From Physcia stellaris (lineage: Eukaryota > Ascomycota > Lecanoromycetes > Caliciales > Physciaceae): 64,000 nt of DNA. Shown piece after piece: positions 1-27,884 of this stretch (its first letter is position 1; each line of letters begins with the position of its first letter). Where the stretch lies: positions 358,509 through 422,508 of the forward strand of contig JABSSW010000032.1 of the NCBI GenBank assembly GCA_018902385.1, written 5' to 3'. A program made the translations under genes and the position numbers. Below the pieces are notes generated by a model, which was not told the DNA's origin, did no database searches, and saw only the letters and a list, made by a program, of their open reading frames with translations.

Positions 1-677
1 AAACATCATGACAAAACAATGAAAATTTTGTTTCGTTACATTCGATCGATCATCGATTTAAATTTTATATACGATTTGAAATTGAACAACAATGAAAATT
101 TCAAAATCAAAATTTATTCGAATTTTGATTACGCAATCGATAAATTGAACAAAAAATCGATTTTCGAATACGTTTACATGTTCGCTGAAAATCAATATCA
201 TGAATGAATCGTAAACAAAAATCGATCGCTATTTCAATCATTGAAATCAAATATATGATTTTATCGACATGCGTTTAAAAAAAATTATAAATAACACAAT
301 TTTTTCGAAATTTGAATTTCATCAAATATTTCGAAATCGAATTGAATCAAATAACAATCATTCAAAACGATAAACATAAAATTTGTTTATCAATGCAATT
401 TTTGAAAAATAATCAAATCGTTAATTTGTTGATCAAAAACGCAAATATTCACGAACGATCAAAACACATTGATGTGATTTATCATAACATCAAAAATTTG
501 CATCAAAAAAATTTGATTCAATTGAATTACGTTTCAAATGCAAACATGATAATCAATGATTTGATTAAATCATTGTCAAAAAATAAATTCAAGAAATTCG
601 TGAAACAATTGAAATTGAAAAAATCGAAAATCAATTAAATTTTTTTCAATAATCAGAATTGTTTTTTTTATGTTAAA

Positions 678-1056
678 ATGTTGATGATTCAATCGTACAC
701 ATTTGACGAATCATAATCGAAAACAAAAATTCGTTGATCGTGTTCAAATTTGAATTGCATAATGATTCAAAATGATTTTTTTTGAAATCGTTCGAATTTA
801 GTTTTTTGATCAAAAAAAATCAATGTTTTTTTCGTCAATAGTCAAAAAAGTTCGAACTTGATTGAAATCACGTCATTTTTTTCATTCTAAAGCGATGATG
901 ATTCGATTGTACGAATTTAACAAATTATAATTGCAAACAAAAATTCGTTAATCGTGTTCAAATTCGAATTGCATGATGATTCAAAATGATTTTTTTCGAA
1001 ATCGTTCGAATTCGATTTTCTGATCAGAAAAATTCAATGTTTTTTTCATCAATGAA
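678..1056. repeat. Tandem duplication, two ~165-bp diverged copies
   Basis: Copies at about 678-840 and 893-1056 share long stretches such as the segment around TTCGTT(G/A)ATCGTGTTCAAATT and the following AATGATTCAAAATGATTTTTTT. The unit period is about 215 bp. Differences are mostly transitions, as expected for two copies mutated independently. No coding content recognised. Confidence 0.75.
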
Positions 1057-1816
1057 CGTAAAAATTGAAATTCAGTAAAAATTACGTCGTTGCACGAATT
1101 AGCATTCAATGAAAATCACAATCAATGCAAAAATTGAAACTCAATGAAAATCGCATTCAGAAATGCAATGAACATGATTGTCATCGAATAAAAATGTTGA
1201 AAAATACGATAACAAAAAATTGAAATATGAGCACGAATAAAATCAAAATTTCTGATTGATCGATTAAACGAAACGTGTCAAAATCGATCATTATTAAAAA
1301 CATCTGTGCAATCAAATTGTATTTATTTCTGTACGTAATTTCGATAATATTGCATGCAATGCAATGACAATCATTCACATTCGTTCAAGAAAGACGACGA
1401 AAATGACTTTTGCAAACGATACGATCTTGAAAATTTATTTTTGAATCGTAACGAAAAAATTATTAAAATATAAAATGTGCAGAAATATCGCGTCATTTCG
1501 TATAATGAAAAAACGTTTTTTTCGACAAATTCTTGATCATGCATGCGAAATTCATTAATAGTTAATACAAATACACGAAAAAACACGAAAAAACGTTTTC
1601 GAATTTTTGTTCGAAATTTGATTGCGAAACACGAATCATGATACTTGCGAATAAATGATATGATAAATTATTTGAAAATATTTGAAAATCGAAAATCTTG
1701 AAACAGATTGATCGAAATGAAAAAATTGTTCAACGTTTTGAATTTTTGATCAAAATAACGATTCGTTTTTACGAAATTTTCGATGTGAATAAAAATATTT
1801 GTGTTTTGATGACGAA

Positions 1817-2016
1817 TGTATTGAAAAAATCATGAATAATTATCATTTTATTGTTTTGAATTTCGTTATTCTGATAAATTACATGCAAATAAAAACACAA
1901 AAAGTGTGCGAATGTTAAAATATTAATTTCAACAAAAACGCATTAATTTTGTTTTCGTCAAATTATATCAATTGAATTTTGATTGCAACACATTTGCGAA
2001 AATTGTATTTTCAACA
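1817..2016 (-). repeat. Outer element, left direct repeat (probable LTR)
   Basis: Aligns with 12260-12456 over ~197 bp, including a long identical core through ACGCATTAATTTTGTTTTCG. On the minus strand it begins TGTTGAAAATAC and ends CAATACA, the TG...CA pattern of an LTR, and an A-rich tract precedes it as a polypurine tract would. Confidence 0.65.
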
Positions 2017-2715
2017 TTTTTTCACAACAATCGTTTGTGTTATCTGTTTTGTATTTTAACGAATTCAATTTGAAATTTTCGTGCAAATTTTTTCAACGAT
2101 GAATTTTGAAACTTTTTCAAAACGAATTTTTTCAACGATATGATTTTTCAACGATGCGATTTTTTCAACGATACGTTGTTTGAAATTTTCGAACAAACTT
2201 TTTCAACGTGATATGACGTAAATTTTGTAAAATTAAATCATACATCGATACGAAAATTGCAAAAACGAACGAATCGAAATTTTGTTAATTTCAATATGAC
2301 GTAAAATCGAATTGTAAAACGTGCGATCGAGCGACTGAAAACGTTTTGATTTCTTCATGAAATAAAACATCGATATGAGATTCGATATTTAAAATTGAAT
2401 GAAAAATACATTATGAAACAAATATCAATTGTTTGAATTTTGCGATGATGAACGAAAATGCGAATCACATCATGTAACATCATTGTGTTTCAAAATTTTC
2501 AAATATTGTTTGCGATATCAACGATTCGATATCTAGTGATTTAATTGTAAAAATTTCGATAAATATGTCAACGATATGAAAAATGATCAAGAAATCGATG
2601 AAAAAAATAATGCATCGAATGCGAACAAACTTTTGAGAACATACATCGATGCAAAAAATGCAAATTCAAACTTTTTTGACGTGATTAAAATCTGTCAGAA
2701 AATCAAATCGATTAA

Positions 2716-3890
2716 TATGCGAAAAAATCAAATATTTTCAACATTATTTGTTTTTCTTGATCGAGTTTTTATTTGCATTCTGATCGAGTTTCTGATTTGC
2801 AAAATCGAAATGTAATGATTGCATAATACGTTTTTTCGAAACGATATTTCGTGACTTTTAGTCGAATTTGTATAATACGCTTTTTCGAAACGATATTATC
2901 TGAACGTGAACATTTTGATCAATACATTTTTTCGAAATTGTATTGTCTAATAAATTGTTTTTTTTTTAACAATTGTACGTACAATACGTTCTTTTGAACT
3001 GTATTGTCATTTTTTTTTCGTATTTATCGAGCGATTGAAATTTCAAAAAATAATAAAAAATAAAGACGTTGATCAGTCGTGTTAAATCAAAACGAAATCA
3101 CAACAAAAATAAATCTTTATCATATTCGTTAAACGATAAAATAAAACATACAACAATTTTTAAAATTCTTTCAGATCACAAAACGAAAAAAACGAAACAT
3201 CGAATTCATTAAAACAACAACAATTTTTATTTTCTCAAATCGATCAACGATTAATAAAAAGAAAAAAAAATTAACGAATAAAAACAACAAACAAACATAT
3301 GCGAAAAAATCAAATATTTTCAACGTTATTTGTTTTTCTTGATCGAATTTTTGTTCTTGATCGAGTTTCTGCTTTGCAAAATCGAAATGTAATGATTGCA
3401 TAATACGTTTTTTCGAAACGATATTATTTGACATCAAAATCTTGTATCAATAGTTTTTTCGAAGCGATATTGATTTGATTTCTAAACGTATTCGTGATTG
3501 CATAATATATTTTTTCGAAACGATATTATTTGATTTCAACTCGTATCAATTGTACAATACGTTTTCTCGAAATCGTATTATTTGAAATCAAATCATTGTA
3601 ACAAATTCACTAAAAATACGTCATTGAAACAAATTCACTGTTGTAATTGTACAATACGTTTTTTCGAAACAATATTGTCACGTTCGTTTTTTTTCGTTTT
3701 GATTGCGTTTGATTTTTTTTCGTTTTTTTTTTTCGTATTTATCGTTCGATAACGAAATCGCAAAATTGTAAAAAATAAATGAATTATCGTGTTAAATCAA
3801 GACAAACAATCACAAAAAAAAACAATTATGTTTTTACAAATCAATAAAACAACAACAAACAACATGTTGATTTTCTCAAAATAATGACTT
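2716..3890. repeat. Large tandem duplication, ~580-720 bp period
   Basis: The segment at 2716-2844 recurs at about 3299-3427, sharing ATGCGAAAAAATCAAATATT and the run through AAATCGAAATGTAATGATTG. The segment at 3020-3110 recurs at 3733-3830, sharing CGTATTTATCG and ATCGTGTTAAATCAA. This is a decayed duplication inside the outer element. Confidence 0.7.
2826..3680. repeat. Dispersed hairpin minisatellite, about nine copies
   Basis: An imperfect palindrome of the form AATACG-TTTTTTCGA-AACGATATT recurs near 2826, 2876, 2922, 2984, 3403, 3450, 3500, 3558 and 3655, usually followed by TTGA or TGTC. The arms AATACGTTT and AAACGATATT pair around a T-rich loop. Variants such as AAATTGTATT and AAATCGTATT often keep pairing. 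Function unknown. Confidence 0.6.
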
Positions 3891-4008
3891 TTTCGAAAAG
3901 AAATCAGTATTTTTTCAAAGCAAAATGAAAAAAAACGAAACGTCAATAGCGTTATTTCATGAATATTTCATTGTTTTCAATTTTTGAAACATTTCGCATA
4001 ATTCAATC

Positions 4009-4232
4009 TATCATGAATCGTGTTTGAATAAACGTAATATTGATTAATTAAACGAAAACAATAAATTTGCAGAAACAAATAAATACAAAATGTTAAAATT
4101 GCAAACAATGTGCGACGTCAAATTTCAAATCACGTTAATTTCAACGTAAAATTAAAACATAATTCGCTGTTCGATTACATATCATATCAATTATTTATTT
4201 GTCAAATTTATTTGTCAAACATGTTCGTAACA
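4009..4232 (-). repeat. Gypsy 3' LTR
   Basis: Differs from the 10522-10745 copy at ten positions by my hand alignment, all transitions, about half in CpT/ApG and half in CpA/TpG context. Equal length in both copies (224 bp) with no indels. Confidence 0.92.
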
Positions 4233-4246
4233 TTATTTTTTTTTTT
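4233..4246 (-). other. Polypurine tract of the Gypsy element
   Basis: Immediately upstream of the 3' LTR on the minus strand lies an all-purine-or-T run (eleven A then TAA), where the plus-strand primer for retrotransposition would sit. Originally G-containing tracts would have become A runs under this mutation pattern. Confidence 0.65.
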
Positions 4247-4705
4247 CGCGAGCGTCGTCTCGACGATTCGTTGTTATTTCGAAATTAAAAAATCTTGTTG
4301 AAAATTTTGTTGATTGATTTGAATGTTTGCAAAATTCAAAAATCACGATTATTATTTTTCATTTTCAGATGTTTCGTTATTGTTTCAAAGTTCGATAAAA
4401 TTTGACAACAATTTCTGAAAATGTTTTTGACACGATTCAACTTTTCATGCGACGTAAATTCTGACTGTAAATAATATCGAGACGATAACGAAAACTAAAA
4501 ATTGCGAAAACGTTGCGAGAATGAAATCGAAATGAATGTATTAAATTCGAAATTTTCAAATTTTAATCGAATGTAATTTCGATTAATGTCAACATGACAA
4601 TTTTTTTTCGAAAACGACGACGATTCGTTGAAAAATCGAATTCGTTGACGACGTTTTGAAATATTGAAATTAACGTTTTGAACGATTTTGAATTTGCAAT
4701 CGTGA

Positions 4706-5249
4706 AATGAATGCGATAAAAATCGTTCATTACGTCGCGAACATTATCAAATTTTTCGTTGTCGACATAATATCATGTTCGATTATGCGATCAATTCGAT
4801 CAATTGATTCGATATTGAAAACGATTGTAATAATATCGAAATTTCAAAATATCGTTCATTTTTCATTCGGAATTTTCGTTGATTATGACAAAATCAAAAA
4901 ATTCATTGATTTGATTTTCGAATGAATTACGAAAATTTTTGTACAAAAATCAACAATGAAACACATCGTAAATATGCATAATTTCAAACAATTCGAATCG
5001 ATATGAATTGTTTATACGTTGTAATATTTTGTAAAAATTTAATTTTTTGTCATCGAATTTGTCAGACGATTTGATTGTTTTGATGTTTCGTCGATCGAAA
5101 AAAACGAAATTTTTCTCGACGTATTTTACGATTTTTCGATGTTTATTGATTTGAATTGTTATACGTTTTTGAATCATTTTTGCATGATTTCGTACGTAAT
5201 TGAAAATATTTTGCATTGTGTCGATAATATTTTTTGTTTTGACGATCAA
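4706..5249 (-). pseudogene. Gypsy integrase C-terminus and chromodomain (relic)
   Basis: The open part (5249-4950) matches the C-terminal integrase segment of fungal Gypsy elements: NKHRK...VFFDRRNIKT, then INNSYRFEL and YDVFH. Past a TGA the same frame continues into a chromodomain-like stretch with a KFRYYYNRFQYRIN core and YYVDNEKFDN. Five in-frame TGA codons interrupt this stretch, each where chromodomain relatives commonly carry Trp (for example before YYVD). Chromodomains direct integration toward methylated-histone chromatin. No Gly or Trp remains except one Gly codon arising on the other strand from the single GG at 4869. Confidence 0.8.
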
Positions 5250-5380
5250 AAATCGTTTTCTCGTTGTAACATACGAGATAAAATTTGATGAAAAATTTAT
5301 ACGAAAATGAAAATCTTTATTGATAAAAAATGAAAATAATTTTGTTGTTACAAATATTGCGTTGTTGTTTGCAAATTAGA

Positions 5381-5765
5381 TCATGAACAATCAAACGTTT
5401 CAATCGTTTTGTATGTAATTGCAATATTGTCGCAATTATTTTTCGATATTTTGATTGATTTTTTCGATTTCTTCATCGATTTTTGAATGAAAAACGATGA
5501 AAAATTTACATTTGATGTCGAAAATTCGACAAAATGTTTGTCAAACGAACGATATGAATTGAAAATTTCGATCAAACGTTATCGAAAAAAATAATTCATG
5601 TGTACGAAATACGTAATTGATGAGTATTTTGATCGTGATTTCAATATTGATATTTTCGTCGTCGACGATACAAAGCACGTAATGACGTTTTTTGTTAAAT
5701 TTGTCAATTATCGTGCATATAACATTATGATCGTGAACGTCGAACAATTCGATGATGAAATTCAT
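5381..5765 (-). pseudogene. Gypsy integrase core (relic)
   Basis: Recognisable integrase catalytic-core pieces: MNFIIELFDVHDHNVICTII, then a segment ending TFDRNFQFIS (family: SDRGxQF), then FHSKIDEEIEKINQNIE, which corresponds to the family signature FHPxTDGQTERxNQ with Pro and Gly lost. Three TGA stops fall at expected Trp positions; one TAA also occurs. Non-functional. Confidence 0.85.
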
Positions 5766-6199
5766 TGATATGTCGATTCAACGTTGCAAAAATATAATAA
5801 AAAAAATAAATAAATCGTTTTTGCGATTTTTGAAAATTTTCGTGCGTTGACATTCATAACAATTACGTACGTATCGACGAATCGTTTTGCGCATGTTGAA
5901 TCAATAATAATCGCGACGTAATAAATTTTTCATGCGATTAAAATTTGAATGTTTCGAAACAGAAAATTCATGAATTTTTCTGAAAAAATCAACGAGTAAA
6001 AAGACATCGACGAACATTCAAAATCGATTTTTTCGATACAAAACGTCGTTTTTTTCAATGCAATTTCGTAAATCAATTTCATTCATTGAAATGAAATTTT
6101 GTTCGATGATTTTACGATAAATCGTGCAATCATCGTTAGTTTTGTTGACAACAAAAATTCGTTTTTAAATAAATTCGTCAGTTTTCATCGCGTGAATCT

Positions 6200-6692
6200 C
6201 GAATCGTTTCGAAATAAACAATATTTGTTTTCGATATTGATGTCGTTCGTCAATATCGTTTTTTGATCGTAAATCAAACATACGAATCAAAACATTTGTT
6301 TTAACGTTTTGAATTTCGAATTGAAATTGAATGACAATATTGAATTTCGAAAAAATTTCTGTTCAACGAATTTGACGAGAAATTAATTTTTTTGACGTTA
6401 TGAAAATTTTCAAACTTTTGTAATCGATGAAAATTTTGATCGATTTTTCAATGTTTTCAAATTCAAAACGTCAATATTTTAAACAACGAATAATGATCAA
6501 CAATTTTTTGTTATAAATTTCGTAATTGCATTCGATTGAAATCATGTTACGATTATAAAAAACAACGAAATGCAAAATTTTTTCGTCGTCGTATTGAAAT
6601 AATATTTTCGCATTGACGTAATCAAAAAAATCAATTTTCAAAATGATTTGTTTGATTCGATCGTAATGTCGTAATATGAAAATTTCGATCAT
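6200..6692 (-). pseudogene. Gypsy RNase H and linker (relic)
   Basis: Begins IEIFILRHYDRIKQIILK..DYVNAKILFQYDDE and contains FYNRNMISIECNYEIYNKKL, matching the RNase H domain of Gypsy polyproteins (family: FxSxKLxPAExNYEIYDKELLA). After a TGA at the expected Trp it continues IEKSIKIFIDYKSLKIF and KKLISRQIR, then another TGA at an expected Trp. The domain identity is clear; catalytic function is lost. Confidence 0.85.
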
Positions 6693-7132
6693 CGTTTTTT
6701 TGAAAAAATTGAAAATTTTTTCGATTTCAGCAATTCATTCGAAATTCACGAATTTTTTGATCATTCGAGTGAAAATTCGAATTTTTTTCGAAAAATCACG
6801 AATGAATCGTCTGTAAAAATTGACGAAATTCACGAAAATTTGCATTTTTTTCAAATTTGTAAAACGTTTTCAATTGACAATGATTTTTATTTTTTTCGAA
6901 TTTATGCGAAAATCATTTATCGATAATATGACGTTCAAAAATGTCATTTTTTTTTGAAAAATTCGCATTTTTCAATATTCATTTGTAATTTGATTTTTTT
7001 GAATTTTTTCAGCATTTTACGAACGTGAACGATGTGTTTTTTTTTGAATTTGTTGTAAATGAAAATATCATTTAAATAAATTTGACAGAAATCGTTCAAA
7101 AAATTGAACAACAAATCGTTCATGTAATGTTG

Positions 7133-7886
7133 TCAATTCGCGAATTCGTTGATCAATTCGAAAAATAATATTCGATATTTGTACGATTTCATGAAAATAA
7201 CGAACGTAATGAATTTTTCATTTTTTTTACTCATTCGAAACTTGTTGAAAGTCGAAATGATATTTAGCTTGATCAAATATTTGCATTTTTGCACTTTAAT
7301 TAAAATTTCTTCGATCAAGAAAATGAAATATCGATTGCATTTCGTGATGTGATTAAATCGTCGATAATTCACACACAAACATAATTGATCATTTGATTTG
7401 ATTGCGAAATAAAACGAACGAAACGTATATTGTTTGATTGAATACGATAAAATTTTTTTGAAAATTATTTTTCAAATATTTTTTGAGTTTTTGAAATTTG
7501 AATTCGAACAAAAAATATATTCGATTTCGAAACAATGTATTGTTATTGTTTAAAAATTCGATTTTGTAATCGTAAATTCGATACGACGACAATTCAATTG
7601 TTTTTTGAAAATCGAATGATTTTGACAAATGTTTGAAATATTTCGATATTTTTTTCATTATACGTTCAAAAATCGATTTGATTTGTTCGTGTTTTAAAAT
7701 TTTTTTGATTATGACGACAATTTTCAACGATTCAAAATTTGTTCGCAATGTTTTGAATGCGAAATCGATTTGATTGATCGTAATGAAAAAACATTGCATT
7801 TTTTGTTTTCGATTTTTGAAATCGACGAATAAACAAAAAAAAATCGCATCAATTATCGCGATATTTATCGAATCGTTTGAATTCAA
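7133..7886 (-). pseudogene. Gypsy reverse transcriptase (relic)
   Basis: 7886-7389 encodes the N-terminal part, with YDYKIEFLNNN..LFRNRIY and EFKFQKLKKYLKNNF (family: DHxIxLxxGxxP...SExELxxLKEYL). 7378-7133 continues with MCVNYRRFNHITKCNRYFIF (family: CVDYRxLNxxTxKNRYPLP), then LNIISTFNKFRM and ELINEFAN (family: FGLxNAP). Substitutions are those expected from loss of Pro, Gly and Trp codons. The two frames are separated by a stop. Confidence 0.88.
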
Positions 7887-8493
7887 TTTCGAAAATGAAA
7901 AAATTTCGAATTGTTATTTTTTGATTTTTCAACGTTTGTTGCGTTGCTTTTTCAAGTTTTTTTTTGACGAATGTTGTTTTCGTAATCGTTGCGATATCAA
8001 TTTTTGAATAATTTGATTCAACGACGAACAATTCGTCATTTTGATCGATTTTCGAATAAATAAAACAATCGAAACATTTTGAATCGAATACGTTTGATTC
8101 GTTTTGTACATAAAACGTTGAAAAACTAAATTGCGAACGAAATAAAATTGTATATCGAAATTTTATTGCAACAATATGTTTCGTGTTATTTGTTTTCGAT
8201 AAAAAAACATCGCGACGTCAATTAAATACGTTTTATCGACGATTTGAATCAGAAATTTTCAAACGTCGAATTTGCATTGTTTTAATGAATATATTGTCAT
8301 GATGATTACATTTGAACGATTTGAAAATCAATTTATCGTAAATCATATTCAAAATAATTTCATGTTTGTTCATTCACGATTTTTTTAAAATTATCGAATG
8401 ATTGTTCAAATCGATGATGAATATAAAAATTGTTAATTCGAAATGCAAATCAATTGTCAATTTGAAATAAATGACATGAATTATTGAAAAAAT

Positions 8494-8706
8494 TTAACGA
8501 TCGTCGAATTCGATAATGAATTTCGATTTTAATAAAAATACGAAATTCATGTTCAACATATTGCATACAAATTGCGCAATTTTTTTATCAATAAAAACAT
8601 AATCAATTGCATCAATGTTTATTAAAATTTTTAATTTATGTTTATTATCGTTGAATGACAACGTACAATTGATAATTAAAAATCGTTTAACAAAAAAATC
8701 AAACAA
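8494..8706 (-). pseudogene. Gypsy aspartic protease (relic)
   Basis: A retropepsin-like fragment: LKILINIDAIDYVFIDKKIA corresponds to the family pattern ALIDSGATxxFID, with the catalytic D-S/T-G altered to N-I-D by loss of the Gly codon. It continues AQFVCNMLNMNFVFLL. It lies between the gag zinc knuckle and reverse transcriptase, as expected. Confidence 0.75.
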
Positions 8707-8876
8707 TTCGTCATGATAAATAAAAAAAAATTTTAAACATTCATCAATCGCGTTTTTGATGTGAATTATTAAATTTTCGAATCAAATTCGTTCGATTCGT
8801 TGATTATATTCATGTAAAACATTTGCATTTTGTGTCAATGACGTTTTTGATATTTGTGAACGTTCGAACATTTTTT

Positions 8877-9944
8877 TTATACGTGATCGATTTCATCGCA
8901 TATAAAACATTTGTTCGTAACGATCAATTTGTTTGTCATCGAATCACGAATTTTGATTTCAGCGTTAAAATAAAAATGAACGACAAATTTCACGAAAAAA
9001 ATCGAAATAACAAATTTCGTAAAAAATATCGAAATCGAAACGACAAAAATTGATTTGAATTGAAACAATTCAAAACGTTGTTAACGTGTCGCGATTTTTT
9101 TTTTTCGAAAATTCGATTGTCGATTGTATATTTGTTGCAAAATGATTCGAATTTTATCGAACGTGATGAATTCACGTGAATATATATTCATCGAATTCAC
9201 GTGAATATATATTCATCGTTTTTTTCAAATTTCAGAAAATTTTGTTTATTAATTTTTCGATTTTGATGATTTCGTTTATAATCAATTGAATTGCTAAAAC
9301 GAAAAAAAATTGAAATAAAAAAACTGAAAATTTTGAATATTCATGATCAATGTTCGAAATTGATTACGCATATTGCGTTTAAAATCAAAATTTTCGTAAA
9401 TAATGTTCAAAAATTTCAACATCATATGTCAAATTTTGAAATAATTCATATTAATATCACGAATCGATTGTATGTAATTATCGACATTATTTTCAATTTA
9501 GTCAATCACAATAATGATTGCGATCATGTTCGTGTCGTAATGATCAACGTTGATCGTCATTTTATCGTGTATTTTTGTTTTTCAAACACGTCAAATAAAT
9601 TTTATTTCATCGATGAATTTAAAAAAATTTGAATGTATTTTGAAACGTCGTTTGTTTTTTTGAAAAAAATTAATTACGTTGATTTTATCGTCGTTTTTTT
9701 TATCGTCGACGTCAGAATTTCGTACACGATTGCGAATTTTGATCAACAAAACGTCGTGATTTTTTTTCAAAAAAATGTAATTTTTTTGTTTGATCAAAAG
9801 TAAATCACGTTGTTTTTCGTATTCGTTTTTCAAAATATTCAATTTTCGACGAATTTCATTTAATTCGACATTCGTATTGATCAATTCGTCACGATCGACG
9901 TTGACAATATTGTACAAATTCTGATATTGAATCAAAACGTTCAA
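8877..9944 (-). pseudogene. Gypsy gag (relic)
   Basis: 9944-9591 encodes a charged coiled-coil-like stretch (NVELNEIRRKLNILKNEYEK) followed by KRRFKIHSNFFKFIDEIKF, resembling the start of fungal Gypsy gag capsid regions. The frame continues past two TGA codons spaced like the W-x-x-W of gag capsids. At 9068-8877 the frame ends with CFICDEIDHV, the CCHC zinc knuckle of nucleocapsid. The frame is broken in several places. Confidence 0.75.
9168..9217. repeat. Perfect 25-bp tandem duplication
   Basis: Two exact head-to-tail copies (9168-9192, 9193-9217) of a unit containing TTCACGTGAA and TGAATATATATTCA, both themselves palindromic. The copies are identical in a region otherwise heavily mutated, so the duplication may be younger than most of the mutation. 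Confidence 0.9.
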
Positions 9945-10013
9945 ATAATTATCACGATCGATGCGTAATCGATCAAATTTCTTTAAAAAATCGACGATTT
10001 TATGATTGATTCA

Positions 10014-10301
10014 TCATTTCAACTGATCGATGATAACGATATTCAAAAAATGAATAATTTTTTTATTTTTCATTTTTATGAATTCGATCGATGATACAAA
10101 TCGACGACGTTTGAATTGATTAACGAAATTTTCGTTAAAAAAATTGTCGTTAATTTTATGCAACATGCGATTCACGTTGACGCGTAACGTTTTGAAACGT
10201 TGTTTCATCGAAATAAGAAATTCGAAAAAAGTTGTTTCGTGATGATTTCGAATTATAATTGAAAATGAAAAATTGAAAATGATAAAAAGAAAAAAAATCA
10301 A
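10014..10301 (-). pseudogene. Region upstream of gag in the Gypsy element
   Basis: An open frame of 95 codons between the 5' LTR and the coiled-coil gag segment. It contains FLISMKQRFKTLRVNVNRML and no Gly, Pro or Trp. It may be the degraded N-terminus of gag; no family motif is recognisable. Confidence 0.35.
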
Positions 10302-10521
10302 TCGAATTAGTTTTCGTTTTTTATCGTCGATTGCGTAAAAAATCGATTTGTTATTTTACGATTTTCATTAAATGTTTCGTCAAAAAAACTTTTTGATCGT
10401 TTGTTTGATCAACAGAATTTTTTCGTCGTTTGTCTCGTCAGAAAAATTTAATCGATTTGAAATTTTATTTTTGAACGTTCGCGTATCACGACGAACGATA
10501 AAAATTGAAAACTTATTGTAA

Positions 10522-10745
10522 TATCATGAATCGTGCTTGAATAAACGTAATATTGATTAATTAAACGAAAACAATAAATCTGCAAAAACAAATAGATACA
10601 AAATGTTAAAATTGCAAACAATGTGCGACGTTAAATTTCAAATCACGTTAATTTCAACGTAAAATTAAAACATAATTCGCTATTCGATCACATGTTATAT
10701 CAATTATTTATTTGTCAAATTTATCTGTCAAACATGTTCGTAACA
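10522..10745 (-). repeat. Gypsy 5' LTR
   Basis: Partner of 4009-4232. Followed on the plus strand by CAATC (10746-10750), the second copy of the target-site duplication. No convincing tRNA primer-binding site is readable next to it, probably erased by mutation. Confidence 0.92.
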
Positions 10746-10756
10746 CAATCAATAAA

Positions 10757-11023
10757 TCAATAAATGACGAAACGTTTTTGACAATGTTTGCAAACAAAAA
10801 ACGAACAAAAAATCATAAAAAATCGAAAAATAAAACGAAACAAGAAAAATGACGTGCGAATCGACTGTTTGATCGAATCATGCATTGTTGAAAATGTTTC
10901 GAATTTGATCGATTTGAAAACAAATAAAATCATCGCATTAAAATATGACGTAATGCGCGTTTGTATGAAATCAAATTTGCAATTGTTTTTGAAATTGCAT
11001 TTGTCAAAATTGCGCGAAAACAA
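10757..11023 (-). pseudogene. Zinc-finger-like relic in the outer element
   Basis: An 88-codon frame containing RITSYFNAMI and, at the end, VCKHCQKRF, a CxxC half of a C2H2-type finger. The RI-x-x-YF motif recurs at 13.2-13.9 kb, so this fragment is related to the zinc-finger family there. It abuts the target-site duplication of the nested Gypsy, which probably split it. Confidence 0.45.
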
Positions 11024-11272
11024 CGATTTGTTTTGACTTGATTACAAATCAAATGAATTCGACTTTTCAACGAACATATGAAACAAATCGTTCATGATGA
11101 GATAAAATTTCTGAATGTTTTGATGTTTCGAAATCGAAATTCGAAACGAAATAAACGAAAAAAACGAACAACAAATTGCGAATTTTTTCAAGATTTTGTT
11201 TATCGATTTGAATATCGCAATCGAAAAACGAAAAAATTTCGACGCAACGATTGATCGTGAAACGATTTCTGC

Positions 11273-11650
11273 TCAAAATATCGATTTTTTTGATGTTGCA
11301 ATCGACGAAATAAATAATATGTTTTTTGAACGTTCGCGTACAATTTCTGATGCGAACATCGAAAAAGATAAAAATTTCGATGACGTTGAAAATGAAAAAA
11401 TTATCGATCGAAATGACGAAAAAAATGACGAAACAAAAAAAATAAATGATTTCGATTCGAAAACAAATGAAACAACGAATTCAACAAATTGTTGAACAAA
11501 CGTCGATTTCGATTTCTTTGCATGACGAATACGAATATATTCATGCAATTTGATGTTGTTATCGAATTTGATCGAATGTTTGCAACGTTTGCACGTAAAT
11601 TTTTCTGTTCGTTTTTTGATTAAACGAATTTTTTTCTTTTGTTTTGTCAA
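11273..11650 (-). pseudogene. C2H2 zinc-finger protein relic of the outer element
   Basis: The 125-codon frame contains FTCKRCKHSIKFDNNIKLHEYIRIRHAKK split as CKRC...H...H, a good C2H2 finger (C-x2-C, about 12 residues, H-x5-H). It is followed by a serine- and phenylalanine-rich tail where Pro has been lost. Similar finger proteins occur inside fungal retroelements, to my knowledge without assigned function. It lies about 600 bp inside the minus-strand 5' repeat of the outer element, the position of a first reading frame. Confidence 0.55.
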
Positions 11651-12259
11651 TTGTTTTATTTTTTTTTGAATTTGTTTTTGATTTTCAATTCATGTTTTCG
11701 TAAAAGATAACTTTTTTGTGTTTTTTTCGCTTGAATGAATCAATTGCATCGCAAAATTTTAATATTTTCAATCAAATGCATGTTATACAACGTTTTCAAA
11801 TTTTGCGTCATTGAATGATCATCAAATACGTGATCGCAAAAAACAAACGAAAAAGATAAAAAATCAAATGCGAAAATGATCGCAAAAATCGTCATTTTGA
11901 TTAAACGATAAATAAATTTCGCGTAGAAATTCGAGTAAATATACGCGAATTCGTAAAATAAAATCGATAAATAGACAAATTCGCGAAGAATTCGTGAAAA
12001 ATTCGCGAAAATAAATGTTATTGCTGATGTAATTGAGAAAATATTGAATAATACTGATCGTGTGTATCAAAATATTGAATGTTGTTTGCAACTAAATCGA
12101 TTTCTGATTTGACAAGATTGAATATTTCATTGAAATTGATTATTGTTGAAATATTGCAAATCGATTGCTGTATTGTTCGACGACTAAATATTACGTATTC
12201 ATGACGTGCTGTAATTGATATTAAATGTAACGAAAATTGTTAATTCGATTTTCATAATC

Positions 12260-12456
12260 TATTGAAAAAATCATGAATGATTATCATTTTATTGTTTTGA
12301 ATTTCGTTTATTTTGATAAATTACATGCAAATGAAAACACAAAAAATGTGCGAATATCAAGACATTAATTTCAACAAAAACGCATTAATTTTGTTTTCGT
12401 CAAATTATATCAATTGAATTTTGATTTTAACACATTTGCGAAAATTGTATTTTCAA
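12260..12456 (-). repeat. Outer element, right direct repeat (probable LTR)
   Basis: Partner of 1817-2016. It ends in a run of about fifteen A on the plus strand where the left copy has CAACA, so the terminal TG is not preserved here. Substitutions relative to the left copy are largely transitions. Confidence 0.6.
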
Positions 12457-12717
12457 AAAAAAAAAAAAATTTTATGCGAAATATTTGAAATCGAAATTAT
12501 TGCAATTGATAAAAAAATTGATTCGCAATCAACTCGCGAAAAATGCAAACGATAACGTAAATGATAAAAAAAAAATTTGTTTTTTCAAAATTTAATACGT
12601 AATTTAAAATGTAAAAAATCGAAAATTCGAATTTTTGAATGTAATGAAAACATTAATGTAAACGTTTCGCATTAATGTAAACGTTTTGTATTAATATAAA
12701 TTTTGAATTTTTGCAAC

Positions 12718-13066
12718 ATCAAATCGATCATACGATAAAACGAACAATTTGATTATGTTAATAAAATCATCGCAATAACGATTAACGCATTGATATTTTT
12801 GCATATGCGAAAATTGATATGTACATTGCATTTAACAAAACATTAACGTAATGAATTTTCTGAAAAATGATCAATTCATACAATTTTTCGCGAATAGTTT
12901 CGACGACAGTTAATAAACAAACAATTAAAAATTTTCGAAAATTTCAAATCGATTATACGATGAAATAAACAATTTCATTACATTAATAAAATCAACGTAA
13001 CAACGATTAACGCATCGATATTTGAACGCATGCAATAATCGATGTATACATTGCATTCAACAAAAC
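12718..13066. repeat. Tandem duplication, two ~125-bp diverged copies
   Basis: Copies at about 12718-12842 and 12943-13066 share AAATCGAT(C/T)ATACGAT, TTAATAAAATCA, CAACGATTAACGCAT-type stretches and the terminal ACATTGCAT(T)..AACAAAAC. No coding content. Just upstream (12650-12700) is a short repeat of ATTAATGTAAACGTTT. Confidence 0.7.
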
Positions 13067-13172
13067 GTGTAAACAATAAATTTTTTATAAAAATGTTTCG
13101 TGACTGAATATTCGAACAATTTATTTTTCGTTTTTTTTTCAATTTCGTTTCGAAACGACAAATTTATTATTT

Positions 13173-13953
13173 TTATTGAATGACACGATCAATGATCGAA
13201 ATGATTTGTTTATAAACGTTAACACAATTCATTTTTGCAATTGAAATGATCGAAACGAATGCGAAAACAAAAAGAAAAATCGAAAAAAAAACGAAAAAAT
13301 ATGAAAATGAAAAAAGAAATTTCGACAGAAAATTTCGAATCGAAATCGAAAACATTGAACATTTTGTATAATAAATCGAACGATTTTTCAAACAAATCAA
13401 TGTCGAAAACAATACGAATTGATTTCGCAAACATGTGTTGATTCAAACTTTTCGATTTTGAATTTTTTGAATTTTGATTAATCGACGACTTTTTATTGAT
13501 TGCAAATTTGAAATAAACGATAATTCGCGATTGTTTTGAAAAGAATTTTCGAAAAATAACGTTCATTTGATTCTGAAACAAATTTTTTTTTCTAAATTTC
13601 TCATCGAATATGCGATTCAGATTATTCATAATGAAATAAAATTTCTTCGAAATTGAAAAACACGATTGCGAAAATTGACGAAAATCGAAATTTTGCGAAA
13701 AAAAACGTCGATTATGATGCTGTCGCAAATCAAATGATTTAAACTTTTCATGAAACATGCGATTTAAATTATTCATCGTGAAATACGATTCATTGTGAAA
13801 TTTCTGATGTTTTCTAATCGAAATCTGAAAAGATGAAATTGAAAAAATAAATGAACAATTGACGATTGCGTTTTTCAACGACTTTGAATTAATTTTATAT
13901 GTCGCAATCGAAAAATTCGAACGCGTTGATTCGATAATCGATTCGAAAATCAT
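13173..13953 (-). pseudogene. Relic with MNNLNRMF repeats, RIxxYFK motif and hydrophobic tail
   Basis: The 244-codon frame (13953-13219) has two internal repeats, YFTMNNLNRMFHEKF and FYFIMNNLNRIFDEKF, then SRIIVYFKFAINKKSS, then SLNQHMFAKSIR. A partly overlapping frame (13430-13173) adds a hydrophobic segment, FLFVFAFVSIISIAKMNCVN, that could be a membrane helix. The order (repeats, RIxxYFK, hydrophobic tail) suggests the C-terminal half of the zinc-finger retroelement family lying just upstream on this strand. Function unknown. No Gly, Pro or Trp remains. Confidence 0.5.
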
Positions 13954-13959
13954 TGAAAA

Positions 13960-14466
13960 TCAAAATTTTTGATTTTTTGATGTTGCAAAAAAAATAAATG
14001 ATTTATACGAAACAAACGAAACAAACGAACAAATGTTTGTTGATTTTTCAATAATTTTGTATGTAAATTCTGATGAGAAAATTCGAAAATTCAAACTTTT
14101 AACAAATTTTCGAACATGATTTTCGCGAATATGTTCATGAAATTTGTTGTTAAAATTGAAATTTTGTTTGCAACGTTTGCAAATTCGAACGCAAACGATT
14201 TGATAAATCGAAAATCTTTTTATCGATTTTGATGCAAATTCGAATGTTAATATTTGAAAAATCGTTGTTTCGCATGTTGATTTGACGCGTTTCAATGTTT
14301 CATGTTCGCGAATGTGTTCGAAAAAATTTTTATTGAAATTGAAATTTTGTTCGCAAAATTTGCACATTGTTCGAACACATATAATTTTTGAAATCGATAT
14401 GTTTTTCATTTTTTCTGATATAATTACGAACGTATTTAACGAAAAATTCAAACGTGATGTTATCAA
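13960..14466 (-). pseudogene. Two C2H2-like zinc-finger modules (relic)
   Basis: Contains VRTMCKFCEQNFNFNKNFF..HIREH and VRICKRCKQNFNFNNKFHEH..ENH, each with the C-x2-C ... H-x3-4-H spacing of C2H2 fingers and the shared FNFNN core. Linkers are Ser/Lys-rich. The modules are paralogous to those at 14497-15924, so the family grew by internal duplication. Confidence 0.6.
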
Positions 14467-14496
14467 TTTCGTAAATAAATAAACAATGCGTGATCG

Positions 14497-14799
14497 TCAT
14501 TCGATTCTCGTTTCTGAAATAATTTTTGAAACATTTTCAATTGAAATGATTGTTAATTTTTTTTTTGCTTTGCATATTGATTTGAACGTATAAAATCGAA
14601 AAAACGAATTGATAACAGACTTTTTTACATGTTGTTCGAATTTGTGTTTGCGAAAATTTTTTTTGATTTTGAACGTCTGTTTGCAATGTCGACACGTTGT
14701 TGATTTTTTCGCTGATTCTGATTCAATTTTCAATGTAAAAAGTGAAAAATTCGAACGTTCAAAAAACGTTTTCGTTAAAATTATATCGAAATCGTGCAA
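14497..14799 (-). pseudogene. C2H2-like zinc-finger module (relic)
   Basis: Starts with an ILTKTFF-type segment that also begins the modules at 15924 and 16275. It contains TTCRHCKQTFKIKKNFRKH..QH, a C-x2-C ... H-x4-H finger, and ends in a Ser/Lys-rich linker. Confidence 0.6.
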
Positions 14800-15090
14800 G
14801 AAAACGAAATTCGATTGATTTTCGAATCAAATGTCGACAAAATCACAAAAAATTACTTTCATTCATTCGAGCAATTTTGATTCATCATACAGATGTTGAC
14901 ATTGCTGAAAATTTTAAATGAAAATAACGATTTGATTGAATCGTTTCTTTTTTAAATTTTGATAAAATCGAATTGAATTAAAAATATCAAAAAACGCGAA
15001 TAAAAATAATTCGATAATTAATTTTTTCATCGTTTCGTATATTAGATTGACTGTATCGATTGAGAAAAATGCGTTGATGATTGAAAATTT

Positions 15091-15924
15091 CTAAATCGAA
15101 ATTTCTTGATATCTTGATTCGAACGTTTGAGAAAATGATAATTTCAACGAAATAACAAAACATTGAATTGATTTGTTCTTTTTCGACTTTGATACATTTT
15201 TTGATATATGAATTGAAAAATGCGTATTTTCTTGTAAAATGATTGTTTTGAAAATAAATGTTGATTCAAATATCTGTTTTGATGTTGTAATAAAAATTTG
15301 TAATTCAGACGAATCGAACGTTTTCATAACAATTGATTTTTTTTTCGTCGCGTATAATAATTCGATTGCGTTGATTTCGAGACGAAAATTCTTGACATGC
15401 ATTTTCGAATGTTGTTCGCTTTTATGTTCGCGTAACGATTTTTTGAAATTAAAAATCTCGTCGCAATGTCGACACGTTGTTGATTTTTCTGTTGATTTTG
15501 ATTTAATTTCGAATGTAAAAAGCGAAAAAGACGAACGTTTCAATAAAATGACTGTTTTGAATGTTGATGCAAATTCGTTTATCGATTTTTGAATTGCAAA
15601 TGAAACAAATGATTTATGCAAAACGAATAACGTTTTTTTGATTTCGCATATTAAATTGATTGCATTGATCGAAAAATAAAAATTTTTGACGAATTTCGAA
15701 ATTTCATGATTGCGAATATGCTCGTATAATTCGTTGTTGAAATTGAAATTCTGTTTGCAAAATTTGCAAATTATTCGAACGTTTGTAATTTTAAAATTTG
15801 ATAAAATCTCGATCGATTCTGATATAACATCGAATGTATTTAAATGAAAATTCGAACTTTTTGAAACACGTCGTATAAACGTTTCTGAAAACGCTTTCGT
15901 TAAAATTCTATCGAAACGTTTCAA
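15091..15924 (-). pseudogene. Longest zinc-finger relic, two finger modules
   Basis: A 277-codon frame starting RFDRILTKAFSETFIRR. Finger 1 is VRIICKFCKQNFNFNNELYEH..NH; finger 2 is TTCRHCDEIFNFKKSLREH..QH. Linkers such as INAINLICEIKKT and INAIELLYATKKK are repeated between modules. It survives as a long frame because this mutation pattern rarely creates TAA or TAG stops. It is probably DNA- or RNA-binding in its original form; role in the element unknown. Confidence 0.6.
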
Positions 15925-15951
15925 CGAAATAAATTCAAATTGAGTTTTGAA

Positions 15952-16275
15952 TTATTCAAACGCGAAATCACACAGACATTTCGACAATAAATTCAACAGA
16001 TTCGATTTGCGATATAGATGTTGACATTGCTTAAAATGTTGCAAAAAGTTCGCGATTTCGTTATATTGTTCGAAATCTGATTCATTACAAATTGATGAAT
16101 CAAACGTATCAATATCGTGAAATTTTGATGTTGACTTTACAATAATCGTGTTTAATTCAATTCGTTTTGCGATTTTTCGAATTTTACGTTTTGTTCGTTT
16201 TTGAGTTATTGCTTTCAATTCTCGTTGTTTTTGCGAAAAAAATGCTTTCGTTAAAATCATTTCAAAACGAGACAA
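15952..16275 (-). pseudogene. Gag-like module with a CQHLYRKS motif (relic)
   Basis: Contains SDFEQYNEIANFLQHFKQCQ followed by HLYRKSNLLNLLSKCL. The pattern resembles a retroelement gag capsid segment (F-x2-L-x2-C-x3-Y...LP-x-CL). It directly precedes the zinc-finger frame on this strand. A related copy is at 16330-16614. Confidence 0.45.
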
Positions 16276-16329
16276 AAAGTTGAAATGCGATCGTTTCTTG
16301 TATCATTCTCAAACGAAATCATTGAGAAT

Positions 16330-16614
16330 TCAAAACATGTATTTCAGCAATTTTGTTTGTCGATATCGATACAACGTTTGACAATGTTCAAGATTTCGTA
16401 AAAAATTCGTGACATCATTGAATTGTCTGATTTTCGAATCAGAACATGACAGATTCGAATTGAAAAAATCGATATTTCGAAAAAAATCGAAAAAATCGAA
16501 ATTCGAAAACAGCGAAAATATCGAGAACATCGCAAAGATTTGAAAAAAACGTTGATTGATTAAATAAATGAATATGATTTCGCAATAATTTCGAAAAAAA
16601 ACAAATAATTTCAA
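16330..16614 (-). pseudogene. Second gag-like module (relic)
   Basis: Ends with SDSKIRQFNDVTNFLRNLEH and CQTLYRYRQTKLLKYMF, paralogous to the CQHLYRKS module at 15952-16275. The upstream part is Phe-rich and degraded. Supports serial duplication of the same gag-plus-finger gene. Confidence 0.4.
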
Positions 16615-16891
16615 TATTGATTTTTTATCGAATTAATAAACGACGATATGAGAAATTTGAAAAACTGATTTGAAATTTGAATTTCGAATGTTATCGACTT
16701 CATCACAAATGACGAAAATTCAAATCGATTTGATGATCAAACAGATGCAATTTTTGAAATTTTTCAAAAATCAAAAATGATTCATGTATCGATATGAGAT
16801 TGTCAATATTGAAAATTCTGTCGAAAAATTGATTGATTTTCTGATTCGAATATTGATATTATCATCGAAATTCGAAAAAATGATCGATTCG

Positions 16892-17419
16892 CTAGAAATT
16901 TTGATGAAAATTCTGAAAGTTTTTCGAAACAAATAAATGATTCGAATTCGATCGAGAAAATGAAAAATTCGTTCGAAAATATTTGATGTAATAATTTTCG
17001 ATATGAAATTTCGAAGAATTGATATTGAATTTATCGCAAAAGTCGAAAAGAAAAATGATTTTACTAAAATCAACAAAAACGTTTTCGAATTGCTTTTCGA
17101 ATAAAAAAATGATTGCAATATCAAATACTGATTGAAAATTGAATGATTTTTTAACGAAATATTGAATCGTTTTCTGATTCGATATTGAAACTATCGAGTT
17201 GATGTGAAAAAACAATCGATTTTCTAAGAAAATTGATAAAATTTCGAAAAATTCTCGAATGAGAAAAATGTTTCGAATATTCACGATCAAAAATCTGATT
17301 TTTGATTTCACGACGAAATTATTGATTCGATCATTGTTCAAATATTTGATATGATGTTTTCTTGATAATTTAAATCTGATTGATAACTTATTCGAATCAT
17401 CGTAAAAACATTTTGTCAA
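16892..17419 (-). pseudogene. Unassigned relic frame
   Basis: A 175-codon frame with no Gly, Pro or Trp and no recognisable motif (segments such as FSFSRSNSNHLFVSK). It lies upstream of, and in the same direction as, the zinc-finger relics, so it could be the start of that element. It could also be a chance frame kept open by the stop-poor mutation pattern. Confidence 0.25.
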
Positions 17420-18480
17420 ACGAAAAAAACGAATTTGAATTAACGTTCGAAAAAAAAATTTATTTGTGAATCAAAATTAACGCGTAAATTCGTCTGTTTT
17501 GAAGTCAAACGACGCAAACGAACGAGTTTATGATGTTTCGTTTTTGTTTACATTTACAACGAATTCATTGTTGTTATTGTTTCGATGTTTTTCTTGAATG
17601 ATCGAATGATACGAATTTATTATGTTTCATTATCATTGAACTTTATTGAAAACAGAATGTTTTGTTTATTTGATGTTCGCGTATTTTAAACGAACATGAC
17701 GTGAATGATTTCGATATAATGTGAAATGTCATGCATTGATATAATATTAATACATAATTACACAAAAATATCGAAATGAAAAGCAAATACATGAAAATTT
17801 GACAAAACATATGTAAAAAATTTGATCATGAACGAGTTTCGATTTTGTCATTCGATATAATAAAATTAAAATGATAATTTTAATGATTGATCAAATATTG
17901 ATTTCAAATGTTGAAATCGATACACGTTCGTCACATATCATACAATTTATTATACAAAATAAACAGTCGAATCAAAAATATTCATTGACAATTACAATTA
18001 TTTCATGTTTTGACATGAATTCATGTCAAAACATGAAATTATTGCAAACACATTATTCATTTTTACTGTTAATGTCGTTGTTGAACAATGATGAAAATAT
18101 TTTGCAATACAAATTAATATGAAAAATGACATGAAAATTTGTTAAAAACGAATACAACGATTCGAAATCATGAAATTTTTGACGTATTGATGTATTAACG
18201 ATATGCGATAATCGTGTTCAACAACGTTAACGTGCTCAACAACGTTAATGTAAAATGCACGCTAAAAAAATTCTTGTATATATACTTTATTACAATATTG
18301 TAACAATGTAACAATGTTACAATGCATTGTTGCAATTGCAATTGCAATAGAAAAATTCAATCAAAAATCAATTGTCAACTGCTTGAATAAACGTTCGATT
18401 TTTGCGATTTGAACGTAAACATATATATATATTCGAACGCAAAATCATCAACGTCTCAACGTATAATCGTGAATTGTCAA
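17420..18480. other. AT-rich stretch with no recognisable gene
   Basis: Same dinucleotide pattern as the rest of the block. Contains a perfect 40-bp palindrome (18000-18039) and short repeats of TGTAACAATG and TTGCAATTGCAA (18293-18350). No coding motif seen. Confidence 0.6.
18000..18039. repeat. Perfect 40-bp palindrome
   Basis: Centred on GAATTC. Each 20-base arm reads ATTTCATGTTTTGACATGAA and the second arm is its exact reverse complement, with no loop. Such a perfect inverted repeat could extrude a cruciform. Confidence 0.95.
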
Positions 18481-18882
18481 TAATATGGTGTTTCGTACAA
18501 CAGAGCGGTGATGATGATGACAGGGCGATAATAATGCTAGATGGCGAAAGCCACGATATTTGATAACCCCAACCCTAAAATAAAGCGCTGTTGCAATTTG
18601 CAGGCGTTTGCCTTGTTTTCATCCACCTTATGATGCACAAGCTTAGCTATTCTTCTCTCGTTTCCCTCCAGTAGATTGGTCGCTATCCTTCACCTTTCCT
18701 AATATGTTCCCAGGTTCAAGAGACATTTGGAGCTGACCCACCAAGGATCTAGAGTAACCTCTACAGTCACATAGTATCTCTACCCTTCACTGCAGCGCAT
18801 CACGATCGATGTGAGTTCTTTGTCTGATATTGCTACATCAAAGCGTCGAGCTTCCTAGTCTCTTCCACCAACCACAAGCTAC
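18481..18882. other. Isochore boundary and gene-free edge
   Basis: From about 18485 GG, CC, AG and CT words return within a few tens of bases (for example CAGAGCGGTG at 18501). No gene recognised here; it is the downstream flank of the minus-strand ATP-grasp gene. Confidence 0.7.
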
Positions 18883-19860
18883 TTACAAAGAAAGCATCGC
18901 CCCACAAAGTCTCTCAAGCCCCGCCTCCCCAGCACCACTCCCAAGCCACAACTCAGGCTCAATAAGCTCAACCTCCATAACCACAAACCTCCCCTCCTGC
19001 ACAACCCCATCAACCCTCACATACACCACTCCTGCATCCCCCTCTACAGCAAAAAACCTCTCCCCCAAAAACCGCACCACCCCCACCGCAGTCTCCATCG
19101 CAACCTCCGGCACATCCTCCCTCGGCACCTCAACCCTAGACCCCCCAAATTTGCCCTGACATCTGAAATCGCCTGCCCGCGGCTTCTTCAGTACCGTGTG
19201 GCTATACGCCCCGCCAACGAACACGAGGGAGTGCTCCCCGTCCACAATACCCTCTTGATACGCCTGCAGCATCAAGTCGCCATGGACCCCCTTCTGCAGC
19301 GCCTGCAGCAGGAACTCGATATCCGGTTCCGACGGCGCGGTCGCGTCGCGCAGCAAGTGGGTCATTTTGCCGGAGGCGGAGATGGAGGGTTTGAGCACCT
19401 GCAGCCCTTCGCTGCCGCTGGCTGCGAGGGTGCTGAGCAGGGAGGAGAGGTCGTGTTGGCGTAGGTCGAGGAATTTCGTTGTGGGGATGGGGAAGCCTGC
19501 GCTGGAGAGGGAGAGGAGGTAGTGCTTGTCTGTGTTCCAGAGGGTGGCTTCTGCGGAGTTGAGGATGCGGAGAGAGGGGTTGAGGTGTGTTGCCGGGATA
19601 AGGGTGCTGCGGAGGAAGGTGGGGAAGGTGAGCGAGTGCTGGTCGTAGTTGGCGCAGCAGAGGAAAGTGATTGTGTCGTAGGAGGCGAGGGTGCGAGTGG
19701 TGGTGGTGGGAGCGAGCCAGGAACGGATGTCGACTTGTGCGCCGCGCTTGCGGAGGGTTTCGGGCAGCTTCCAGTTTTGTTGCGCGGTCCATGTCGCTTC
19801 GAGCTCTGTGGGGTTCTGGGTTGTTAGGAAGAGGATCTTGGGGGGTGGTGTTGCTGCCAT
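18883..19860 (-). CDS. ATP-grasp ligase-like protein (DcsG/RimK-type)
   Basis: A single uninterrupted exon of 325 residues starting MAATPPPKILFLTTQNP. It has the ATP-grasp layout: a pre-grasp N-terminal region, VLKPSISASGKMTH (Lys-containing nucleotide-binding strand), GAYSHTVLKKPRAGDFRCQG followed by a glycine-rich turn, and near the end VMEVELIEPELWL, whose acidic residues would bind Mg-ATP. The MELELIEP ending resembles bacterial DcsG-type (D-cycloserine) ligases and glutathione-synthetase-like proteins, so it probably joins a carboxylate to an amine using ATP; the substrate is unknown. It is the first gene after the AT-rich block and is GC-rich, unlike its neighbour block. A bacterial origin is possible but not shown. 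Confidence 0.85.
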   Translation of the reverse strand: MAATPPPKILFLTTQNPTELEATWTAQQNWKLPETLRKRGAQVDIRSWLAPTTTTRTLASYDTITFLCCANYDQHSLTFPTFLRSTLIPATHLNPSLRILNSAEATLWNTDKHYLLSLSSAGFPIPTTKFLDLRQHDLSSLLSTLAASGSEGLQVLKPSISASGKMTHLLRDATAPSEPDIEFLLQALQKGVHGDLMLQAYQEGIVDGEHSLVFVGGAYSHTVLKKPRAGDFRCQGKFGGSRVEVPREDVPEVAMETAVGVVRFLGERFFAVEGDAGVVYVRVDGVVQEGRFVVMEVELIEPELWLGSGAGEAGLERLCGAMLSL

Positions 19861-27609: not shown

Positions 27610-27884
27610 AGCTTGTGATGCTATAATGCCACGCCCTTTACGAGAATACTCGAGGAGCAAGAATGCTTGACTCAGATTGTGCCTTCAGAATCACCACTGA
27701 AAGCGTACCGTAGAAGCTAGTCCTCTTGCTCGTCCCTTCACTGTCTGTGAATCACCTCAGCTCATTGGCTCTGTCAACCCTAAGCTCAGGTTACACAACG
27801 GTGGGGTCGTCTGTCAGATGAATCTGCATGAGCTGGCGGGTGTGTTGTTCAACACCTCACCTTAGTACAAGAAAAGGCGCGAAA
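27610..27884. promoter_or_regulatory. Divergent promoter region, RdRP and NadR-type gene
   Basis: About 275 bp separate the two divergent ATG codons (27609 minus, 27885 plus). No specific box can be defended. A second in-frame plus-strand ATG lies at 27828. Confidence 0.45.

Follow-up and report, generated by a model that had tools for sequence, protein, structure and literature searches.

A lichen fungus appears to disable its repeats through C-to-T mutation almost only before pyrimidines

What could remove nearly every CC and GG from more than 18 kb of a fungal contig and leave the gene-bearing DNA beside it untouched? The question is raised by a stretch of 64,000 nucleotides from Physcia stellaris (assembly GCA_018902385.1, contig JABSSW010000032.1, positions 358,509 to 422,508 of the forward strand), hereafter the window, whose first 18,486 positions form a block of mutated repeats that includes the reverse-transcriptase region of a Gypsy element. 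The assembly comprises 44 Mb in 147 contigs, and the window lies within contig C32; all copies and genes described below come from this genome. We think, with a probability of about 75%, that the block consists of piled-up transposon copies in which a repeat-directed process resembling repeat-induced point mutation (RIP) has turned C into T, with a different target, a C whose 3' neighbor is a pyrimidine. The fungus appears to cripple its repeated DNA in this way, changing C to T almost only before C or T.

The block is set apart by its dinucleotide composition. Positions 1–18480 hold no CC and a single GG (at 4869–4870), whereas 200 mononucleotide shuffles gave 617 ± 22 for the two together, with a minimum of 551. 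CT (192) and AG (147) sum to 339, against 1773 ± 36 in the same shuffles (minimum 1661). CA (993), TG (1280) and CG (1083; observed/expected 3.5) are kept. The original prediction, made from the letters of the window, had noted one GG and no CC in 18.4 kb, rare CpT/ApG and retained CpA/TpG and CpG, all of which the counts bear out. Its remark that TpA is not elevated stands relative to base composition (1056 TA, observed/expected 0.42) but not as a raw frequency, which is 5.7% in the block and 4.2% in the flank. The guanine-plus-cytosine (GC) content is 25.9% in 1–18480 vs 49.7% in 18481–64000. This gene-rich remainder has an ordinary composition, with 2649 CC, 2648 GG, and observed/expected ratios of 1.09 for CT and 1.08 for AG. 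We place the edge of the block near 18486, as the next CC or GG after the lone GG is at 18487.

We modeled the mutation in silico by applying C-to-T changes to the window's own positions 18481–64000, choosing near-saturating rates per round by hand rather than fitting them. The block's 16 dinucleotide frequencies were reproduced, with r = 0.992 and a root mean square deviation of 0.007, by a rule that changes C on both strands wherever C or T follows (CpY, Y being a pyrimidine). The same rule foresaw the drop in GpC from 6.3% to 1.6% (1.61% in the model, 1.62% observed). Rules acting on CpA (r = 0.26), CpG (0.33), CpC only (0.65) or CpH (H being A, C or T; 0.88) were rejected, as was the unchanged flank (0.22). 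A GC content of 26% next to 50% could also suggest ordinary AT-biased drift, DNA from an organelle or a contig of foreign origin. Such explanations sit poorly with CpG and CpA being retained while CC is absent, with the close fit of one rule, with the presence of the block's repeats on many contigs and with the junction, within one contig, between the block and ordinary gene-bearing DNA. We give these explanations practically no credence.

Alignments of element copies show which bases were changed. With the reverse-transcriptase stretch 7133–8217 of the window as a query, 40 of 280 candidate places were scored, the window itself included, and these matched at 89–100% identity. An unmutated element, L016 (the same place as L055), served as another query, for which 40 of 226 candidate places were scored and 12 were cut out as loci. 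L055 (C5:1166021-1167520) and L056 (C12:59812-61311), both almost unmutated Gypsy copies, matched it at 96–100%, and the other 38 scored places were 72–82% identical. We used L055 as the reference and set L056 aside as unmutated, which left 11 mutated copies: 10 loci and the window's own Gypsy reverse-transcriptase region at 6424–7923 on the reverse strand, a member of the L055 family at 72.6% identity. Across the 11 copies, C had become T at 1729 of 1867 CpC sites (92.6%), 1698 of 2317 CpT (73.3%), 121 of 2109 CpA (5.7%) and 46 of 1856 CpG (2.5%), or relative rates for CpC:CpT:CpA:CpG of 104:53:2.4:1; L055 is a single copy, so some of the counted differences are its own. The window copy alone was changed at 169/173 CpC, 200/213 CpT, 20/192 CpA and 5/170 CpG. 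C>T and G>A make up 3596 of the 3811 substitutions, and only 73 are transversions. The order CpC > CpT >> CpA > CpG is best read as the mark of a RIP-like process with inverted specificity and not of classical CpA RIP. The model and the alignments thus agree with the earlier claim of near-saturating C-to-T change before a pyrimidine on both strands, and the tabulation by 3' neighbor that had been proposed as a check returned a spectrum dominated by CpC and CpT rather than by CpA.

The same context was found in a second reverse-transcriptase-bearing family (L020/L035). Its search listed 50 matches, with 40 of 178 candidate places scored, and 20 of the matches were taken as loci. Relative to the least mutated of these 20, the other 19 were changed at 402/412 CpC, 1088/1515 CpT, 114/2068 CpA and 37/2430 CpG. 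Copies range from nearly untouched to saturated. The 5' base has little effect: among the Gypsy copies, the fraction changed varies with it only between 0.91 and 0.95 at CpC and between 0.66 and 0.82 at CpT, and in the second family the fractions are also nearly flat across 5' bases.

A comparison of two sister copies, L057 and L058, brings the context down to what looks like a single event. Over 1.5 kb there are 40 differences between them, mostly within 271 bp (1031–1301 in L055 coordinates). In this patch, L058 carries extra changes on one strand at 11/12 CpC, 17/27 CpT, 1/11 CpA and 0/15 CpG, that is, at 28/39 CpY vs 1/26 CpR (R being a purine) on the hit strand (Fisher p = 2e-8), and at 3/44 on the other strand. 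The patch may record one round of mutation, like one round of RIP. Neurospora RIP is described as affecting one strand at a time, and 91.9% of its clusters are all C-to-T or all G-to-A (PMC7296669). A cytidine deaminase of the single-strand AID/APOBEC type, or another deaminase, editing the repeats would fit the C-to-T changes and the one-strand patch too. AID/APOBEC enzymes choose their targets by the 5' neighbor. In both families here the 3' neighbor decides and the 5' neighbor hardly matters, and we consider a deaminase very unlikely. A search of the genome with APOBEC_N, the only deaminase profile used, gave no match, to which we attach little weight as the controls were equally silent.

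At the two borders compared, the mutations are also confined to repeats. Their edges are sharp, one lying at 18486 of the window and the other around position 1000–1050 of another locus (L006), and the repeats of the block recur elsewhere in the genome. At the right-hand side of the block, 17601–17936 is the end of a repeat that recurs at many places in the genome (query positions 1 to about 336 matched), followed by a second repeat at 17936–18617, again with many copies (query 336 to about 1017–1034), whose right end adjoins unique DNA. For this second repeat (17936 to ~18617), 40 of 386 candidates were scored, and five copies (L068–L072) were aligned with the window. The last ~130 bp, beside unlike flanking DNA, is unmutated in the window (18487–18617) and in L070, L071 and L072, or four of the six copies. 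L068 is mutated throughout the repeat end, and its flank is mutated as well. Where the window reads CCCCAACCCT, L068 reads TTTCAATTTT, with each C before C or T changed to T and the C before A retained. Such sparing fits homology recognition that breaks down close to where a repeat stops, and would not follow from a rule that reads base composition.

Which enzyme might be responsible? A six-frame search with PF00145, which could miss diverged relatives, matched four places in the genome that we read as three genes, so that the RID and DIM-2 homologs that the original prediction proposed looking for are present: two genes of RID/Masc1 type and one DIM-2-like. The DIM-2-like gene (L012) combines DNA_methylase and DUF7893 in an open stretch of 1009 amino acids. 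The RID/Masc1-type genes (L013/L014 and L011) carry EQTSGL and EETFGL, respectively, at motif VI, with SPPCQ intact; two TGA stops within L011 fall in introns of a hand-made gene model. We take EQT to mark RID and EET to mark DmtA. In a tree of 43 sequences (the two proteins, RID-A and RID-B, with 41 of 120 listed hits), several deep forks of which are weak, RID-A groups with Alectoria and Usnea proteins, and RID-B with a Heterodermia protein, to which it is 72% identical, and more distantly with the DmtA of Aspergillus and Histoplasma.

In the mechanism we favor, homology between copies would be the trigger, acting in the sexual phase as in Neurospora, and the agent would be an enzyme of the RID/Masc1 family with a cytosine-5 methyltransferase fold. 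It would change C ahead of a pyrimidine, with CpC mutating at about twice the rate of CpT, and with CpA and CpG some 20 to 100 times slower as targets. We infer this agent on two grounds, that it is the 3' base from which the specificity is read and that the genome encodes two such enzymes having the catalytic PPC motif; judged from sequence, a RID/Masc1-type enzyme most likely runs the process. Its main rival is a route in which heterochromatin is methylated in the DIM-2 manner and the resulting 5-methylcytosine is then deaminated. The genome does have a DIM-2-like gene with a long open frame, a 2026 review describes DIM-2 as methylating all CpN with a preference for CpT (PMC13297926), and RID-independent RIP of older repeats is reported in Neurospora (PMC11969663). 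However, CpC is ahead of CpT in both families and in the patch, so CpT is not the first target; the sharp edge and the spared repeat end fit homology limits better than spreading heterochromatin; and the one-strand patch resembles a RIP round. DIM-2 acting within homologous stretches would be compatible with the CpC lead, the edges and the patch alike. Overall, we regard the DIM-2 route as unlikely, though well ahead of a deaminase.

A RIP-like process with a CpY target should leave its own trace in indices and in coding frames, and both were scored. The block gives a TpA/ApT of 0.42, a (CpA+TpG)/(ApC+GpT) of 1.44 and a composite of −1.03, and is scored as not RIPed against the classical thresholds of at least 0.89 and at most 1.03 for the first two (PMC2621366). 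The expectation that standard indices would miss the block is thereby confirmed for these two. It extends to all 52 loci with GC below 33% (lowest 23.5%) among the 72 examined, some of which overlap and one of which is the window's own: each fails both thresholds. Since the two standard indices are blind to mutation of the CpY type, RIP may be under-counted. As to coding frames, CpY mutation makes most nonsense codons by turning TGG into TGA, and CAA, CAG and CGA do not become stops. The tally agrees, with 250 TGA, 33 TAA and 3 TAG inside RVT_1 matches (150 of 527 candidate places scored) and 44 TGA and 3 TAA inside DDE_1 matches (10 places, one of them without stops). With stops mostly TGA, gene finders may assume a code in which TGA is Trp. 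Detection of such copies by protein homology is weakened as well; the window's reverse-transcriptase frame of 111 amino acids matched no Pfam family.

Several observations weigh against our reading of the process as repeat-directed, RIP-like and run by a RID/Masc1-type enzyme. CpA is not untouched: at 5.7% it exceeds CpG, and it reaches 8–10% in some copies. L055 and L056 are 96% alike and unmutated, and 10 of the 150 scored RVT_1 places have no stop, so not every duplicate is caught; these copies and stop-free places are probably recent insertions that escaped. In the patch, L057 has changes at 4/11 bottom-strand CpT sites that are absent from L058. Four copies were put through run tests, of which L057 was clustered and L058, L063 and the window's own were not, which leaves a single patch as the strand evidence. 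At the right-hand repeat, L069 is spared over only about its last 60 bp. The tie between enzyme and activity is one that we infer, and the evidence comes from one genome.

Compared with RIP in Neurospora crassa, the process is alike in changing C to T on both strands, in repeats and in strand-clustered fashion, with RID- and DIM-2-type genes present. It lacks the classical traits of CpA preference, raised TpA/ApT and passing of standard indices. The Neurospora preference is CpA > CpT > CpG > CpC (PMC5496416), vs CpC > CpT >> CpA > CpG here. In Trichoderma reesei the preference is also shifted relative to Neurospora, but with CpA and CpG at the head of the order and CpC at its bottom (PMC5496416). 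CpT is a known target. In Neurospora itself, CpT changes outnumber CpA in Tad1 by RIPCAL (PMC2621366), and the rRNA pseudogenes show a relatively high CpT rate (PMC5555474). Botrytis, Sclerotinia, Magnaporthe, Anisogramma and Colletotrichum truncatum have CpT as a target beside CpA, and in some families or species as the leading one (PMC4352252, PMC10998396, PMC6180176); in a survey of Ascomycota, CpT to TpT was the dominant change where RIP-capable control species were aligned (PMC7882544). The three papers on these CpT-targeting genera report CpA targeting in the same genome, whereas the present fungus nearly spares CpA and hits CpC most. The term CpC is absent from the main text of all three, and the Ascomycota survey names CpT and not CpC.

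CpC mutation has been reported in other fungi. S. nodorum shows CpC depletion, yet CpA change is dominant (PMC2621366). Hypermutation in Rhizoctonia solani AG8 is alike in that CpC is mutated and is the densest CpN class, but both genes and repeats are affected, and the bias is described as one toward CpG (PMC4014442). Monilinia shares CpC mutation, with CpC to TpT double changes, but classical CpA to TpA is also present (PMC8959702). The lichen fungus Cladonia rangiformis has similarly sharp borders between genes and mutated transposons, and RID and DIM-2 homologs (PMC12542154). Its mutated DNA peaks near 16% GC, vs 26% for the CpY-saturated block and 23.5% for the lowest locus here, so the context in Cladonia has to be a broader or different one; the terms CpT and CpC are absent from that text. 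Searches of the open-access literature did not turn up CpC-led, CpA-sparing RIP, and subscription papers may report such a case. A survey of 1,239 fungal species came to the conclusion that a CpA preference is common to RIP-like defenses (PMC12543289). To this the present genome offers a clear counter-example, its order of preference being nearly reversed.

The signature may extend to other genomes. A mutated frame (L059) used as a query returned 215 proteins, and Gly, Pro and Trp together make up less than 2% in 105 of the 120 listed, down to ~40% identity and from several sources, although a query without Gly and Pro ranks like hits first. Such Gly/Pro-poor reverse-transcriptase frames among public proteins suggest the same signature elsewhere. 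P0254, P0258, P0273 and others are reverse-transcriptase proteins without Gly and Pro that contain several Trp; these Trp possibly arose when public gene predictions on mutated fungal DNA read TGA as Trp. A scan of viral contigs with the mutated reverse-transcriptase frame gave 58 pattern matches and no relative. We tentatively suggest, at slightly less than even odds, that a re-specified RID/Masc1 paralog moved the RIP target of a lineage of lichen fungi from CpA to CpC/CpT, the genome having one EQT and one EET, DmtA-like enzyme, and that the signature is present in further genomes, where it was missed as surveys lean on CpA/TpA indices. Specificity differs sharply among fungi with homologous enzymes, so comparing the two RID-type proteins with a CpA-type RID makes the target-setting protein testable.

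The remaining features of the window are of less certain identity or lie in ordinary DNA. Within the block, a reverse-strand frame at 4950–5375 has a Tf2-1-like SH3 match (PF24626, E = 1.8e-05, under the curated cut-off), and we take it as a downstream part of Gypsy pol. A row of stop-to-stop frames on the reverse strand at 13219–17470 is either a mutated repeat or a captured gene. Two of the four frames tested (13960–14496 and 15091–15951, reverse strand) have weak C2H2 zinc-finger matches below cut-offs. The first long open frame beside the block, at 18883–19860 on the reverse strand, has ordinary composition and a weak ATP-grasp match (PF02955, below cut-off). In the gene-rich half, frames at 22325–24626 look helicase-like by eye, and reverse-strand frames encode an RNA-dependent RNA polymerase (PF05183) at 26122–27660 and an AAA_11/AAA_12 helicase-type protein at 42001–43380. 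The row of reverse-strand frames at 37246–41407 looks AAA ATPase-like by eye, and its part at 37246–38601 matched PF00004. An HSP20 protein of the window has its best named matches in two lichen-forming fungi, Loekoesia (68%) and Wetmoreana (66%), with closer matches of up to 96%.

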